A stretch of DNA of 44,422 nt from positions 1 to 44,422 of the IMG/VR virus record IMGVR_UViG_3300020119_000019. One strand, 5' to 3'. A program made the position numbers and the translations under genes. Shown piece by piece: positions 20,290 to 39,220 of this stretch (positions are counted from its first letter, which is position 1; the number at the start of each line of letters is the position of its first letter). The notes below the pieces were generated by a model, which did no database searches, was not told the origin of the DNA, and worked only from the letters and a program-made list of their open reading frames with translations. The stretch comes from a virus.

Positions 20290-20730
20290 TTATGCGTGCG
20301 CCGAGTTGCCCCATGCCGAAGGCGTCTTACGCGGTCGACCGCGCCCGCGCTTCACGGGTTCGGGGATACGCCAGCCGGAACCGATCGCAGGCTTGCGGTT
20401 CGCCGGTTGTTCGCTTGCCTCGCCGTGATACGGTTCAGGCTTCGGCGACTTGCCGACGGCTTCAAGGAAGCCGCGCATTCCCGCGTCAAAGTTCTGCCGC
20501 GCCTGCCGCCAACGTTCGGCTTCGGCGTCGCGCCAATGCGACCGGCATTCCGTTTCGCGATCGATGAACGCCGCGATCATTGCGGTATGCATACACGCGG
20601 CAACGTCAATTGAGTTTTCAGGCGTGCGATAGGGCCTTGCGAACCATTCGCGAATATGGCTTTCGAGTGTTTCGCAGTCGGCGCTTTCAAACGCCCGAAG
20701 AAACGCTTCGCTGCTGTCCATCATTCCCAT
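20290..20730 (-). CDS. Hypothetical protein with C-terminal AT-hook
   Basis: The 146-residue protein begins MGMMDSSEAFLRAFESADCE. Near its C-terminus is KRGRGRPRKT, an AT-hook (R-G-R-P) that binds the minor groove of AT-rich DNA. The rest is helical and acidic or basic. The start has the GGAAACCGGGCAA leader. Its DNA-binding tail could make it a nucleoid-like or regulatory protein; function is otherwise unknown. The gene is followed by a good terminator. Confidence 0.65.
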   Translation of the reverse strand: MGMMDSSEAFLRAFESADCETLESHIREWFARPYRTPENSIDVAACMHTAMIAAFIDRETECRSHWRDAEAERWRQARQNFDAGMRGFLEAVGKSPKPEPYHGEASEQPANRKPAIGSGWRIPEPVKRGRGRPRKTPSAWGNSAHA

Positions 20731-26101: not shown

Positions 26102-26130
26102 CGGTTACGACGATTGCGTTTCGTTGTCAA
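26102..26130 (-). promoter_or_regulatory. Candidate promoter between methyltransferase-like gene and 26073 operon
   Basis: TTGACA (26130-26125) overlaps the stop codon of the methyltransferase-like gene, followed after 17 bases by TAACCG (26107-26102), a weak -10. The surrounding CGTCGT matches the other promoters of this block. Confidence 0.4.
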
Positions 26131-26861
26131 GCGGCTTTCGCAAATTGCTTCAACGTCCAGTTAGCGAAGAACACGGCTTGCGCCCAACCGCGTGGCGTCG
26201 TGCTGCGAATGCGCTTGGTTCGTTCGCTCTTGCCGCCAAGGTTCGACCAACCGGGATAGTACCCGCAATCGGGAACCGGACGCTTAGGCGGAACGACGAA
26301 GCCGTTGCCGTACCAAATCCAAGTTTCTTTCGTGTAAGCGTCGCGCGGCGGGATGATATCGGGATACGTCGGGTGCCGATCGTCTTCGGATAGATAGCCG
26401 CCGAAGTCGGACGGATCGAATTTGAAATTCGGCGGACGATACATGGTCGAAATAACCGAACGCGGGTTTTCAGCGAACCACGGGCAACCGACGACATTGC
26501 CGACGGTTTCCGTTGTGCGCCAGAGAGAGAGAGCCCGCGACTGAAATTCAGGATCGATCGCACGCTTCTTTGCAAAGTGCTTGGCGCCGCATGTCGCAAG
26601 TTCGGTACACGGCCCGAAGCCGAACACGATAAGCGGGTTCATCGCAATGATTGCTTCGATCGCGTAATTCGTCGCGCCTTCAGCCTGCCAGGGCGAAGGC
26701 ATAAGATCGGCTTTGACGAAGCCAATCGAACCGCCTGAAGCGAAGTGCTCAACGCGCCCGTCGTTCAATATGTCGAAGCAAAGGCATTCAAAGCCGCGTT
26801 CAGCCCAAGGGCGAACCATAAGCCCGCTTTCGTCGAACATTGATACAACAGGTCGGTTCAT
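26127..26861 (-). CDS. C5-cytosine methyltransferase-like protein
   Basis: The 244-residue protein begins MNRPVVSMFDESGLMVRPWA. It has the features of a phage family related to C5 DNA methyltransferases: a start segment like a nucleotide-binding loop (SMFDESG), a Pro-Cys motif in FGFGPCTELATCGAKHF (PC as in motif IV), ENPRS (motif VI-like ENP), and near the end DAYTKETWIWYGNGFVVP. Key residues PC and ENP are present, so methylation of cytosine is possible. The order and short length differ from classical enzymes, so it might modify another substrate. AAAGGAAG lies upstream of the ATG at 26861. Confidence 0.6.
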   Translation of the reverse strand: MNRPVVSMFDESGLMVRPWAERGFECLCFDILNDGRVEHFASGGSIGFVKADLMPSPWQAEGATNYAIEAIIAMNPLIVFGFGPCTELATCGAKHFAKKRAIDPEFQSRALSLWRTTETVGNVVGCPWFAENPRSVISTMYRPPNFKFDPSDFGGYLSEDDRHPTYPDIIPPRDAYTKETWIWYGNGFVVPPKRPVPDCGYYPGWSNLGGKSERTKRIRSTTPRGWAQAVFFANWTLKQFAKAA

Positions 26862-26883
26862 TGCTTCGCTTCCTTTGCCCACA

Positions 26884-27069
26884 TTAAGCGGCCCAAGCTG
26901 CCCGGCGTCGATCGTCTTCGCTCGCCGGTTCGCGTCCAATGACGGCGCCAAGCTTCGAACCTTCAGGGTTCACGCCTTCAGCCGTCCAGTAATCGAATTC
27001 GGCCTTCGTGCCGCAGCCGAAAGAAACCCCGTCTTCGAAAACCCATTCGTAAACTTCAACGGTCGTCAT
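26884..27069 (-). CDS. Small hypothetical protein, 61 residues
   Basis: The protein begins MTTVEVYEWVFEDGVSFGCG and has a short beta-rich first half and a helical, acidic second half. The ATG at 27069 has AAAGGAC upstream. It is the first gene after the promoter beside the dyad element. No family recognised. Confidence 0.6.
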   Translation of the reverse strand: MTTVEVYEWVFEDGVSFGCGTKAEFDYWTAEGVNPEGSKLGAVIGREPASEDDRRRAAWAA

Positions 27070-27090: not shown

Positions 27091-27126
27091 TAGGTTGAAC
27101 CTAATAGCATTCGCCGAAGCTGTCAA
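27091..27126 (-). promoter_or_regulatory. Promoter with overlapping palindrome
   Basis: TTGACA (27126-27121), 17-base spacer, TAGGTT (27103-27098) on the minus strand, about 30 bases before the ATG at 27069. The -10 lies in the perfect palindrome TAGGTTGAACCTA (27091-27103), a likely operator. Confidence 0.6.
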
Positions 27127-27191
27127 GCGCAATCGACAAAATTTTTATCGGATGTACGATCGTCGGTACGTTTAGCCCTTCGGCGGTTCCA

Positions 27192-27409
27192 TAGTATAGA
27201 ATAGTAGGGGGAATATGATGCTCAAACCCTTGGAAATCTGCCAAATAGTATAAATAGTATAATAGTATATAAGGGGTAGGGGAATTTTCGTTATCCGGTT
27301 AGGTCCAGGTCGGTCCGATATCACTCACTACCCTACTATCGTACTATTCGTACTATTTGGCGGTTTTCTGCGGGTTTCAGCCTACTACGGGCCATACTAC
27401 CCCATACTA
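27192..27409. repeat. 218-bp dyad-symmetric element with TAGTA boxes; candidate origin
   Basis: The 344-base gap between 27069 and 27415 holds this element. Five TAGTA boxes lie on the left (27192, 27202, 27246, 27255, 27263) and five mirrored TACTA boxes on the right (ending at 27409, 27399, 27355, 27346, 27338), all positioned symmetrically around 27300.5. The inner arms, 27239-27267 and 27362-27334, are 29 bases with 24 identities when one is reverse-complemented. An eleventh box (27383-27387) is outside the mirror. The region is AT-rich compared with the rest and adjoins the primase-helicase gene. Clustered iteron-like boxes beside a replication gene suggest an origin; an operator array is the alternative. 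Confidence 0.65.
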
Positions 27410-27414
27410 TCCGG

Positions 27415-29787
27415 TTAAACGAATGTTGAAGCGCGAGCAATGACGAACGCTCTAGCGGTTGTTCCGAACATTCCTTCCACTTGCTTTCGCGGCAATTCGC
27501 GAAGATCGTCGGCATCTAGCAAATGCTGAAGCGTGCGTTTAATCGCATTTGTCGAACCTGCTTTATCGGTACGGAACGACGCGCGTTGCATAAGGGCTTT
27601 CGAGATAGCCGAGTACGGATATACGCCCGCCGCGTGCCAGTTTCCAGCGATGCCGTATTTCGACGCTTCCTGTCCTGTCGTATCCTTCGCCCAACGCGAT
27701 ATAACTTTGATCATTTCGCCGATTTGCTTTTGCTCACCAGCGCCAAAGACTGCCGATCCGATTTCGCCGTTCTGAAAGCGGCTAATGACTGCGACGATAT
27801 CGCGAGCGACAAGATCGCAAGCCCAACGGGCCGCATCGATATCAATGCAGGGATCGTACGGGTATTGTCCGACGGCGACCAGGGCGGCAAGCTTCAGCGC
27901 CTTGACGTGCGCGCGGTTCCACATATGCCGAACGACTTCGTTTGCCTGCCCGTCGTTAATGTGGGCATCTGCAAACTTGTCGAAATCGTCTAGCAGCTTT
28001 TCGGCGTATGGATCGGCTCGCACCTGAACGACGCCGCCCGACGACATAACCTGTTTGACGTGCGCGGTTAGTTCGGTGACCATATCGATTAGGGCGAACG
28101 ACGGTTTCGCATATGCCGCGCTTTTGGACATGGCGGGCCGCTTGCCCTGATATTCGATCGTTAGGAAGCGAGGAAGGAAGCCGTCGGCAATCATGCCTTC
28201 GTCTAGGGCTTCGTAAAACTTTTCGGGCGTGCTTTCGCCGATTAGGGTGAACGACGGGGCGGCGATCGGCGGCGTGTTCTTATCCTTATCCGAATACGCC
28301 ATCGGGTTTAGGATGTTGCCGTGACCGGACTTGTTAAACAGGTCCATTACGACTTTCTTAACGCCGATTTCGTTTGAGTTTGCGAACGGGCTCGCCATCT
28401 GCTTTAGCCGCATCCCCCATTCGCCTTGTACGCTGAACACGCAAGGTTGACGGGCGAGCCATTTGATAAGCGCCGCGTCCGATCGTGTTTCGCCCGGTCC
28501 GACGAAATCGGCAATTACGGGGCACGTCGGCAGACACGCGCTAATCAGCTTCGATACGCCCGCGTTGATGGCTTCTTTACCCGTGCCCGTTGGGGCGAGG
28601 CAAAGGACGTACATATTCAGGCCAGTTGCCGATATGTTGAACGCCTTGCCCACAATACCTGCAACAAGGCCGATCGCGCCGACTAGGGCGATTTCACGCA
28701 CCGGACGCGGCGCGGCTTCGTAAATGAAGTTCGCGACTTCCCCTAGCAAGCCTGGGGGTAAAATTATGTCGGACGGGTTGACGCCTTCAGGGCCTTGTGC
28801 GACTTGTGGCGTCGCCTGAAGCGCGGTCCTGCCCGGTTCCGCATCGGTCGGGGCGGTTGGTCCTTCCACCGCCCCGTTACCGCCCAGGAACCCCGGCAAT
28901 TCAATCTGTTCTTCCGGCTGCAACAAGTCGTCGAACTGGACCTTCAAGCCTTCGATATCGATTTCGGGCAACTGCCGATCGAACGACTTGTTCACCATGT
29001 ACGAAACGTAATCGTCGCGCTTCGCTTTGTCGCGCTCGCCAAGCTTGGATGCGCGGAAGATGCGCGCGATTTGATCGCGGTTTTGCGTATAGAATGCGAC
29101 GATATCGACAAGCGCGAAATCGGCTTCAGATTGCGAGGCGTAAAGGCTTTCCCAATCGCCTTCGTATAGCGCGCGGAACTTGTCGCCGTTCAGGGCAGAC
29201 AGCGCCTTGCCGATAACGCTTGCGTCGTCTTCCTTCTGTTCGGCGTTGCCGCCGTATTGATGGATCGAAGCTGGCCCGCCCATTTGATGCCAAAGCAACA
29301 TTGCGGCATTTTGGCATTCGATAATCGGCGCATCGCGGTAAACGTCGCCGGTCATGGTCATGAAGCGAAGGTTCGAATAGATTTCGATTTGCGCCCGCTT
29401 GCGACCGCGCGGAATGCTGCCCTTACCGATGATATGCAAGCCGGTGCCCGATGGCGAGCGTTCGGCGTACGATTGGATTTCGTGGAATATGCGCTGTTGA
29501 CGCTGAAAGATTTCGTCGTCGCCCTTGGGGTCGTCAAGGTCGATAAAAACGTAAGGATCGTCGTCGGTAAGGACGAACCCGATACCGCTGAAGGCGCCGC
29601 TTTCGAACGCGCGCAAGGCGTCTTCGAATGTGCCCCATGTCGATGGCTTGTCGACGGCAGCCTTAGCGCCCGCGACGATAGGCGAGTACGGAACCTTCGT
29701 CGGTTTCGGCCCGCCTTGATCCTCTAGCCGCCACACAATCCATTGACGGTAAAAGCGCATTTCGCTTGGAATTGCATCGAACGCCAT
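27415..29787 (-). CDS. Primase-polymerase/DUF3987 helicase
   Basis: The 790-residue protein begins MAFDAIPSEMRFYRQWIVWR. The N-terminal half is a bifunctional primase-polymerase-like domain with WR at the front, GFVLTDDDPYVFIDLDDPKG near residue 80 (acidic residues of the active site) and SGTGLHIIGKG. The C-terminal half is a DUF3987-type helicase/ATPase with a Walker A motif APTGTGKEAI near residue 395-402. It would prime and unwind DNA at the fork. The start at 29787 uses TAATG overlap with the HTH gene; an upstream start (29814) is within that gene. The stop lies at the edge of the dyad element. Confidence 0.8.
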   Translation of the reverse strand: MAFDAIPSEMRFYRQWIVWRLEDQGGPKPTKVPYSPIVAGAKAAVDKPSTWGTFEDALRAFESGAFSGIGFVLTDDDPYVFIDLDDPKGDDEIFQRQQRIFHEIQSYAERSPSGTGLHIIGKGSIPRGRKRAQIEIYSNLRFMTMTGDVYRDAPIIECQNAAMLLWHQMGGPASIHQYGGNAEQKEDDASVIGKALSALNGDKFRALYEGDWESLYASQSEADFALVDIVAFYTQNRDQIARIFRASKLGERDKAKRDDYVSYMVNKSFDRQLPEIDIEGLKVQFDDLLQPEEQIELPGFLGGNGAVEGPTAPTDAEPGRTALQATPQVAQGPEGVNPSDIILPPGLLGEVANFIYEAAPRPVREIALVGAIGLVAGIVGKAFNISATGLNMYVLCLAPTGTGKEAINAGVSKLISACLPTCPVIADFVGPGETRSDAALIKWLARQPCVFSVQGEWGMRLKQMASPFANSNEIGVKKVVMDLFNKSGHGNILNPMAYSDKDKNTPPIAAPSFTLIGESTPEKFYEALDEGMIADGFLPRFLTIEYQGKRPAMSKSAAYAKPSFALIDMVTELTAHVKQVMSSGGVVQVRADPYAEKLLDDFDKFADAHINDGQANEVVRHMWNRAHVKALKLAALVAVGQYPYDPCIDIDAARWACDLVARDIVAVISRFQNGEIGSAVFGAGEQKQIGEMIKVISRWAKDTTGQEASKYGIAGNWHAAGVYPYSAISKALMQRASFRTDKAGSTNAIKRTLQHLLDADDLRELPRKQVEGMFGTTARAFVIARASTFV

Positions 29788-29996
29788 TAAACACGCCCCG
29801 CTGCAATAAGCCAATCGTGCAAACGCTGGACCTTTACGACACTAGGTTCGGCAATCCTTCCGCGCCGAAAGCGCGAAAGCCAAGCTTCATCCAAGCCGCT
29901 AAGTTCGGCGATTTCCTTCGCCGTTCGTTCGGTTAACGCGTGATTGTAAAGGGCAATCGTCCGCTCTAATAGCGGAACGCCTGGGGCGGGGTGCAT
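29787..29996 (-). CDS. Small helix-turn-helix protein
   Basis: From the ATG at 29996 the product has 69 residues, starting MHPAPGVPLLERTIALYNHA. It contains TAKEIAELSGLDEAWLSRFR and RGRIAEPSVVKVQRLHDWLI, the helix-turn-helix of Cro/CI-like proteins with the turn at about residues 24-45. GAAAGG lies seven bases upstream of this start, and I prefer it to the longer start at 30137. As the first gene of the leftward operon, facing a rightward promoter in the shared control region, it may regulate both. Its stop overlaps the primase start by one base. Confidence 0.7.
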   Translation of the reverse strand: MHPAPGVPLLERTIALYNHALTERTAKEIAELSGLDEAWLSRFRRGRIAEPSVVKVQRLHDWLIAAGRV

Positions 29997-30061
29997 ACGG
30001 TGCCTTTCGATTTGCCGGGCAACATACGGCGAAAAAGGGATTGCACAAGTGAAATTCCCTG

Positions 30062-30090
30062 TTGACTTCGGTTTTCCCCGGTTCCATGTT
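30062..30090 (+). promoter_or_regulatory. Candidate rightward promoter of the replication operon
   Basis: TTGACT (30062-30067), 17-base spacer, CATGTT (30085-30090) on the plus strand, about 55 bases before the ATG at 30151. The -10 is weak. It lies in the divergent control region (29997-30150), which also has a palindrome GCCGATCGGC at 30108-30117. Confidence 0.45.
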
Positions 30091-30150
30091 GCAAGCGTCG
30101 ATCGAACGCCGATCGGCAAACAGTCGTAACCGGGCAAAGGAATTCAAACC

Positions 30151-37258: not shown

Positions 37259-39220
37259 ATGTTCTTTGACGATTCAACGTTAGACGATTACGCGCCGCTT
37301 CCGACGAAGCGTAAAGCCAAGCGATACGACGGCGTTTTAAAGCGTCTGTCGTACTCGCCGGTTTTGCGCAAGTTTAGCGTCTCGCCGTGGAATTATTCTG
37401 TCGGAACCGAAGTCGTTTTCGACGTTGAATGTTATCGAAACTACTTCCTTTGCGCCTTTAAGAACATTGCGACGGGCGAATATTTTTACGTCGAACACTA
37501 CGGCGAAGGTCCGCTTCCCGAATGGATGCGAACCGAACTGCATAGGGCGCTGCATTGGTTCAAGATCATCGGCTTTAACTCGATTTCGTACGATATCCCG
37601 ATGATCGAAGCGGCTTGCAAAGGCGCGACGCTATACGAACTGAAGGAACTTAGCGATGACATAATTATTCGCGACGAACGCAAAGCGAATTGGCGGGCGC
37701 CGTACAATCATATCGACTTGATCGAAGTCGCACCGCTTGAAGGTTCGTTGAAGCTTTATGCTGCCAGGCTTCATTGTAAGCGAATGCAGGAATTGCCGAT
37801 CGATCCGCATTCGGATTTGTCGCCGCAAGACGTGATCGATACGCGAGATTATTGTTTTAACGATCTTGACAATACCGAACTTTTATACTCGCACCCCACA
37901 TACGGGTTAAAGCCGCATGTTGAATTGCGCGAGCGGTTGGGCGCCGAAATCAATCAGGACATTCGTTCGAAATCCGATGCCCAAGTAGGCGAAGCGTTCA
38001 TTAACGCGAAGATACGCGAAGCGCGCGGCTTCTCGCCGAAGAAGCCCGATTTGCCGGACGATTACGAATTCTATTATCAGCCGCCGGAATACCTGTCGTT
38101 CGATAATCCGCAGCTTCAGGAAGCCTTGCGGATTGTCCAGGCTGTCCCCTTCAGGCTGGACGGCAGCGGCGCCCCGGTCATGCCTGAAGCCCTGTCCAAG
38201 CTGTCAATTCGGATCGGCTCTTGCGTCTATAAAATGGGCATGGGCGGGCTTCATTCGAGCGAGAAGACGGCAGTCCATAAAGCGGACGACGAAACCGATC
38301 TAATCGACCGCGACGTAACGTCGTTCTACCCTTGGCTTATTATCAATTCAGGTTTCTTCCCGAAGCACATCGGCAAGTTGTTTATTGAAATCTTCCGCGA
38401 TGGGCTTGTGCTTCGTCGAATGGAACTAAAGAAGCTGAAGGACAAGTTAGAAGCCGGATTGAAGATCGCGATTAACGGCATCTTCGGCAAACTTGGATCA
38501 TTTTATTCGTCGATCTTTTCGCCCGATCTTCTAATTCAGGTTACGATAACGGGCCAGCTTGTTATCCTAAAGCTAATCGAAATGATCGAAGCGGCAGGAA
38601 TTCCGATCGTGTCGGCTAATACCGATGGCGTTATTATCAAGTGCCCCAAGCACATGGCCAATATCTTAGGCGCTGTTATCGCCGAATGGGAGCGCATAAC
38701 GTCGCTTCAGACTGAAGAAACGCGTTACGCCGCCGTTTACTCGCGCGACGTGAACAATTATATCGCGATCAAGGAAGACGGTTCGACGAAGGCAAAGGGC
38801 GCGTATTCCGAACGCGGTTCGGCCCAAAATTCCGCAATGTCGAAAAACCCCGAAGCGTTAATATGTTCGGACGCGGTGCAGGCTTTCTTGTCGAAGGGAA
38901 CGCCGATCGAAAAGACGGTTCGCGCGTGCCAGGATATCCGCCGCTTTGTCGTCGTTCGCAACGTGCGAGGCGGCGCGCATAAAGACGGCTATTTTCTAGG
39001 CAAAACAATTCGTTGGTACTATGCGCAAGGCGTGCAAGGCGTAATCAACTATATCGCAACCGGCAACAAGGTTCCGAATTCTGAAGGCGCTTGCCCTCTT
39101 ATGGAACTGCCCGACGAATGCCCGACCGATATCGCATATGAATATTATATCGATCGGGCTTTCGGAATGCTTGGTGATCTAGGGTACTTCGGTTCGACGA
39201 AACAAGGCGGATTGTTTTAA
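37259..39220 (+). CDS. Family B DNA polymerase, short
   Basis: The 653-residue protein has an N-terminal 3'-5' exonuclease (FDVE near residue 53; NSISYD near 105; YCFND near 198) and a polymerase domain with motif A DVTSFYP (near 351), motif B KIAINGIFG (near 401) and motif C SANTDGV (near 453). Motif C is NTD instead of DTD; the second Asp and the motif A Asp, which bind the catalytic metals, are both present. It is shorter than cellular family B polymerases. It follows the clamp-like gene by nine bases and ends the rightward operon. Confidence 0.85.
   Translation: MFFDDSTLDDYAPLPTKRKAKRYDGVLKRLSYSPVLRKFSVSPWNYSVGTEVVFDVECYRNYFLCAFKNIATGEYFYVEHYGEGPLPEWMRTELHRALHWFKIIGFNSISYDIPMIEAACKGATLYELKELSDDIIIRDERKANWRAPYNHIDLIEVAPLEGSLKLYAARLHCKRMQELPIDPHSDLSPQDVIDTRDYCFNDLDNTELLYSHPTYGLKPHVELRERLGAEINQDIRSKSDAQVGEAFINAKIREARGFSPKKPDLPDDYEFYYQPPEYLSFDNPQLQEALRIVQAVPFRLDGSGAPVMPEALSKLSIRIGSCVYKMGMGGLHSSEKTAVHKADDETDLIDRDVTSFYPWLIINSGFFPKHIGKLFIEIFRDGLVLRRMELKKLKDKLEAGLKIAINGIFGKLGSFYSSIFSPDLLIQVTITGQLVILKLIEMIEAAGIPIVSANTDGVIIKCPKHMANILGAVIAEWERITSLQTEETRYAAVYSRDVNNYIAIKEDGSTKAKGAYSERGSAQNSAMSKNPEALICSDAVQAFLSKGTPIEKTVRACQDIRRFVVVRNVRGGAHKDGYFLGKTIRWYYAQGVQGVINYIATGNKVPNSEGACPLMELPDECPTDIAYEYYIDRAFGMLGDLGYFGSTKQGGLF

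Follow-up and report, generated by a model that had tools for sequence, protein, structure and literature searches.

A candidate replication origin built of inward-facing boxes beside a phage primase-helicase gene

The window, a viral stretch of 44,422 nt (IMG/VR record IMGVR_UViG_3300020119_000019, positions 1 to 44,422), carries beside its primase-helicase gene an array of short inward-facing boxes. With a probability of roughly 0.8, this array is the replication origin of the phage, its boxes being bound by the predicted C-terminal winged helix of the phage's own AEP-primase/AAA+ helicase. The case is a comparative one, drawing on the layout of the array, the uniformity of the box within each array, the switching of the box between phages, its covariation with residues 736-744 of the primase, and one pair of sequences that differ by a single block. 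An earlier note on the window had read the array as a replication origin, and the arrays of relatives together with the position of the GC-skew minimum favour that reading. In the literature outside subscription journals, we found no description of such an array, nor of the origins of the group of Septimatrevirus, Kilunavirus and Titanvirus. The results would place a likely, unannotated origin in a wide siphovirus group that includes these three genera, name a probable initiator domain, and yield a residue-to-base code for the choice of origin that can be put to the test.

The array in the window

The gene order on the minus strand is the small HTH gene, the AEP primase/DUF3987 helicase gene, the array, and more small genes. 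Eleven TAGTA boxes lie within 218 bp (27192-27409), every one of them facing inward. The features are:

27192-27196, plus strand: TAGTA box, outer, primase-distal arm
27202-27206, plus strand: TAGTA box, outer, primase-distal arm
27246-27250, plus strand: TAGTA box, inner, primase-distal arm
27255-27259, plus strand: TAGTA box, inner, primase-distal arm
27263-27267, plus strand: TAGTA box, inner, primase-distal arm
27334-27338, minus strand: TAGTA box, inner, primase-proximal arm
27342-27346, minus strand: TAGTA box, inner, primase-proximal arm
27351-27355, minus strand: TAGTA box, inner, primase-proximal arm
27383-27387, minus strand: TAGTA box, outer, primase-proximal arm, the eleventh, overlooked in the earlier note
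27395-27399, minus strand: TAGTA box, outer, primase-proximal arm
27405-27409, minus strand: TAGTA box, outer, primase-proximal arm
27233-27273, no strand: candidate DNA-unwinding element, holding the window's most AT-rich 40-mers (80% AT)
27415-29787, minus strand: AEP primase and DUF3987 helicase gene
29787-29996, minus strand: small HTH gene, overlapping the primase start

The earlier note had listed ten boxes, and all ten are present, with five pairs centred on 27300.5 and equal 44-base gaps from outer to inner boxes on both sides, as it had described; its remark that the region is AT-rich also agrees with the sequence. Its count was one short, and the mirror position of the eleventh box (27214-27218) is degenerate, reading TATGA. 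Each arm spans 77 nt (27191-27267 and 27334-27410), and the two are 73% complementary (56/77); outside the boxes, the complementarity is 31/52. The note had further held that the symmetry exceeds chance. Across the window, TAGTA or its complement occurs in 19 copies, compared with 17.8 in shuffles, yet 11 of the 19 fall in the 218 bp, where about 0.1 (0.09) would be expected. The exact mirror register alone is weaker evidence than claimed, because 5 of 200 dinucleotide shuffles of the entire window also contained a 5-mer whose copies form five mirrored pairs about a common centre. It is the density of boxes in the 218 bp, rather than their mirror register, that cannot be chance. This is the sole TAGTA array of the window.

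The spacers hold a second conserved element. In many arrays (e.g. L028 and L039) the sequence GCTAAGT(G/C)ATTGA separates the outer from the inner boxes, occurring at 38296 and 38348 in RcSpartan (L242); the window and loci L004, L013 and L021 have a GCTGAAA-CCGCAGAAA-CCGC element in its place. The spacer element is possibly a site for another protein. A DNA methyltransferase gene (phrog_757, 26127-26951) is also located near the array.

Arrays of the same design in relatives

The layout was found in more than 40 related phage genomes and contigs, mostly just 3' of the primase-helicase gene, with Septimatrevirus 73, KL1, Birtae and RcSpartan among the carriers. Thirty-five array loci entered the analysis, and arrays were also found in additional loci and cultured phages. 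The window's neighbours among cultured phages are Birtae, VCLv21, Septimatrevirus 73, KL1 and Titanvirus. Read in the direction of the primase, the shared plan starts with about three outer boxes, spaced by ~10 and 12, and after a gap of ~32 continues with three inner boxes spaced by 9 and 8; beyond a central stretch of ~50-110 bp, the set recurs in mirror order. Box orientation and spacing are preserved in relatives, whereas exact mirror register is often lost. Scanned genomes generally hold one strong array apiece, which in some relatives lies 0.4-3.5 kb downstream of the primase. Among remoter primase relatives, about half showed no clear array within the DNA examined. As a check, the earlier note had suggested looking for the array at the same position in related phages; it is present in the same neighbourhood there, with different boxes. 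Because the boxes differ among phages, an exact 25-mer of the window's array found no match in viral contigs. Our first array finder (fixed 9/8 spacing and a 6-mer) returned many low-scoring matches at the level of shuffled sequence, and these were discarded.

The box sequences seen across phages are TAGTA, TTGTA, TCTAA, TAGAA, TAGGA, TATAA and others, including the variants TATAG and TATAT. In a common register, the general form is nT-NNN-A-Y-G, the variable triplet being AGT in the window. The triplets observed are ATA (the commonest), CTA, CTT, AGT, TGT, TTA, AGG and AGA, while the box of Axy18, TGTTTWCGG, falls outside the register. Inside each array the box is near-uniform, with 8.8 copies of the phage's own box on average against 0.6 for the boxes of other phages. 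On a tree of the primase core, built without the C-terminus, the triplet requires 13 changes.

Of the two inner arms, the distal one has the higher AT content in 23 of 25 phages. The cumulative GC skew, another check proposed in the earlier note, reaches its minimum close to the array (0.1-1.6 kb away) in 10 of 13 genomes, namely the window, Birtae, 73, KL1, VCLv21, AH03, Langgrundblatt1, Halfdan, Loki and RcSpartan, and remote from it in PaMx42 (4.5 kb), Axy18 (~10 kb) and VPv64 (~21 kb). GC skew is partly confounded by gene orientation, and in Halfdan and Loki the minimum is inseparable from the gene-strand switch. However, in 73, KL1, VCLv21, AH03 and Langgrundblatt1 it lies 0.1-0.5 kb from the array and ~3-4 kb from the strand switch (an estimate for VCLv21, whose record is unannotated), so that in these five phages the skew does not merely reflect gene orientation. 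In Loki (L245, 31090-34308), the primase and HTH genes run as a pair in the opposite direction to those of other relatives and the array sits on the opposite side of the HTH gene, yet a TAGTA array is still found at the GC-skew minimum. Several copies of one putative initiator box and an adjoining AT-rich element near the initiator gene, the generic features of an iteron-type origin, are present.

The primase domain that covaries with the box

The primase ORF opens with TTG at 29814, and its homologues begin at the ATG at 29787. The protein matches phrog_3022 (DNA primase, E 2e-232), and its AEP primase domain (residues 5-251) matches PDB chain 7ola (E 3e-50), which we take to be a DNA primase of SaPI type. 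Pfam gave DUF3987 and an NrS1 HBD match, and no match to D5, Primase_Cterm or MCM. The parts of the gene and of its surroundings that bear on box recognition are:

27418-27741, minus strand: predicted winged-helix C-terminal domain (~residues 692-799, AlphaFold2), proposed to bind the origin
27586-27609, minus strand: helix residues 736-743 (AISKALMQ), covarying with the box
27183-27781, minus strand: block differing as a unit between the window and L004/L020, comprising the last ~120 primase codons and the array

AlphaFold2 models the C-terminal domain as a compact winged-helix-like fold with a pLDDT of ~90. In a fold search of the PDB, the model of helicase plus C-terminus resembles MCM chains most closely (E 3e-6, TM ~0.4); the 50 best matches are MCM, RuvB, ORC and ClpAP chains, with 7ola/7om0 and the NrS-1 polymerase structure absent among these 50. 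With the C-terminal domain alone, Foldseek gave weak matches (best E 0.09) and a PDB sequence search gave none. The C-terminus is predicted to be a winged helix on an MCM-like AAA+ core. In one relative (L026, 3501-5918), the primase gene has an in-frame stop codon, which is missing from its near-twin L027.

To relate protein to box, 9-residue segments along the whole primase (740 in all) were compared with the box by partial Mantel correlation, corrected for core similarity. Segment 736-744 shows the top correlation of the 740 (r 0.52, 0/2000 permutations). AEP-domain segments 163-175 are almost equal (r 0.47), and phylogeny is therefore incompletely removed. The conserved helix 754-767 was considered as the recognition helix and dropped, as it shows no correlation with the box. 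At the level of single residues, position 738 is Q, S or A in phages with the triplet ATA; a first triplet base of C goes with N738, in two separate lineages, and one of T goes with T738. All four GT-type phages in the first set carry Q743, as do L231 and L232, which were added later. On the tree, these residue-base pairs give 3-4 independent pairs per test and none contrary, the sign tests alone not being significant, and the code rests mostly on 35 loci of shared ancestry. Among loci outside the rule set, L163 (T738) has TTTAA and L106 (N738) has TCTAA, both in agreement, the L106 array being clear by eye with an automated box call only 1 above control; L231 and L232 (S738, Q743) carry TAGTA like the window. 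These additional loci test the rule only mildly, because most carry A, the default, at triplet position 1. Over all loci, the pairing of residue and base fails in L013 and L088 (S738 with C or T), L048 (Q743 without GT), Axy18, whose box lies outside the register, and L092 (N738), whose TTATA call is unclear, being AT-rich and ambiguous in register. Helix 736-743 comes second in the domain and is not the canonical recognition helix, so it would either enter the major groove or shift the recognition helix. Most likely, the primase C-terminal domain reads the boxes, and the box letters and the reading helix have repeatedly changed together.

A close relative gives a single case in which domain and array differ together. 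L004 and L020, which are one contig, have a primase core 99% identical to that of the window, and DNA identity between the window and L004 is ~96% over most of the primase gene upstream of the block. It drops to ~65-70% near codon 678, stays low throughout the array (52-83% inside the block, mostly 57-73%), and regains 90% just beyond it (27182-27123). As low identity spans codon ~678 through the array and is high on either side, the domain and the boxes differ as one block, which would most simply be explained by recombination. A second block of low identity (~50%) to L004 covers the HTH gene region (29822-30110), at the other end of the primase core.

Tentatively, and at somewhat less than even odds, we suggest that the box and the reading helix form an evolving replication password. 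Domain and array would move between phages as one specificity cassette, and selection, e.g. by co-infecting relatives or satellites able to exploit the initiator or titrate it away, would drive the repeated coordinated switches. If true, this would provide a readable residue-to-base code for a phage initiator. The repeated, coordinated switching of ~ten boxes with their putative reader offers a natural set of cases in which to study how initiator and multi-copy origin swap partners with function intact, and the same cases bear on whether origin incompatibility shapes phage competition.

In the mechanism we propose, each box (nT-NNN-A-Y-G) would be a binding site for the C-terminal winged-helix domain of the primase-helicase. 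Since the copies of the two arms point inward, two initiator groups would assemble in opposite orientations. The AT-rich distal inner arm would then melt, two helicase rings would load in opposite orientation and move apart, one in each direction, and the primase domain would synthesise the first primers. The initiator is thus probably loaded as two opposed rings; MCM likewise loads as double hexamers. It is the symmetry of the array that suggests bidirectional forks.

Other readings and known origin systems

The boxes could instead be a large operator, at which the small HTH protein or another regulator controls the early genes downstream. The HTH gene adjoins the primase in most relatives and is, like the array, strongly divergent between the window and L004, and several relatives have a TTGACA-like element beyond the array. 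However, this element and the array do not overlap, the array is retained in Loki where the flanking genes are rearranged, and the same boxes occur in phages in which a ribbon-helix-helix-like or GIY-YIG protein replaces the HTH protein. HTH similarity shows no relation to box similarity (r -0.06, best segment 0.20), compared with 0.55 for the primase helix in the same 22 phages. We therefore consider an operator unlikely. The HTH protein, named as a possible array binder in the earlier note, was rejected as the box reader because its similarity does not track the box, and it is probably an autoregulator; the other protein named there, an AT-hook candidate (20290-20730), had no family match. 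A structured RNA, in which the primase read-through transcript adopts a long hairpin acting in early-gene regulation or as a terminator, would fit the minus-strand transcript of 27185-27415, which folds far better than shuffles (z -7.3). Yet pairing explains neither why one box is shared within each arm nor why arm spacings are often not mirror-matched in relatives, both of which lower this reading; the array has no Rfam match and no terminator-like site, and the box follows a helix of a DNA-binding-type domain of the primase, so we give the RNA hardly any credence. Inverted iteron arrays also act in copy control and partition in iteron plasmids, and the array lies up to 3.5 kb from the primase gene in some relatives. 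It could accordingly be another kind of DNA site (partition, recombination, or copy control by handcuffing) bound by the primase or another phage protein. The proximity of the skew minimum, the single strong array, the AT-rich element and the link to a primase-helicase point to initiation instead, and we regard such a site as very unlikely.

Several observations concern the neighbouring genes. A TTGACA hexamer at 27121-27126 (minus strand), ~65 bp past the array, is kept in relatives despite differing downstream genes and is likely the -35 element of the next early promoter, with a weak -10. In L011, L073 and L059, a GIY-YIG nuclease domain is joined to the HTH protein upstream of the primase or stands in its place, which we read as a homing-type insertion beside the replication gene. 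A ribbon-helix-helix-like gene of the same position and size replaces the HTH gene in L045, L049, L056, L065, L077, L078 and L082, as judged from sequence (L056 has no Pfam match).

At the origins of SV40 T-antigen and papillomavirus E1, short boxes by an AT-rich tract are read by the helicase, which forms a double hexamer. The arrangement proposed here is similar in these respects, but the origin-binding domain is N-terminal in those proteins and the lineages are unrelated. To our knowledge, no comparable box switching is found there. The T-antigen/E1 comparison has been drawn before (PMC7581432).

SaPI Rep, including the SaPI5 primase-Rep, and SCCmec Cch2 are self-loading initiator helicases in which an AEP is fused to or lies beside an AAA+ helicase; their C-terminal domain recognises short iterons lying immediately 3' of the gene (AAGTG for Cch2), and two hexamers have been proposed (PMC7581432). 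As in the SaPI5 type, an AEP primase domain and an iteron array directly downstream of the gene are found here. The SaPI type has a Primase_Cterm/D5 helicase, whereas here Pfam gives DUF3987 and the fold search MCM first; here, too, five to six boxes make up each of two arms that face inward, the genomes are of siphovirus type, and the triplet switches among relatives. The Sulfolobus plasmid pRN1 (orf56/orf904) has a small regulator gene, an AEP-helicase-winged-helix protein and a stem-loop origin just 3', and a stem-loop origin 3' of the replication gene has already been proposed for Bordetella phage BIP-1 (PMC4234260). A regulator gene directly before the replication gene (HTH, or ribbon-helix-helix-like in ~seven loci) is shared with pRN1, but those stem-loops lack iterons, which are the conserved feature here. 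Phage P4 alpha combines primase, helicase and winged-helix origin binding in one protein, with repeats at the origin (PMC4234260), much as our protein combines primase, helicase and a predicted winged helix with repeats at the putative origin; its primase is TOPRIM, whereas ours is AEP. The polymerase of deep-sea phage NrS-1 likewise has Prim/Pol and HBD followed by a ring helicase, with putative recognition sites in the middle of the genome, yet its Tail domain has been reported to adopt a new fold and its 8-nt site forms no array (PMC7102993), in contrast to the multi-box array described here. The system would be a variant of the iteron-origin kind, without the D5 helicase of SaPI5, the iteron-free stem-loop of pRN1 or the TOPRIM primase of P4. 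It appears to work like the SaPI Rep, P4 alpha and pRN1 origins, and is set apart from them by its MCM-like helicase fold and its switching triplet.
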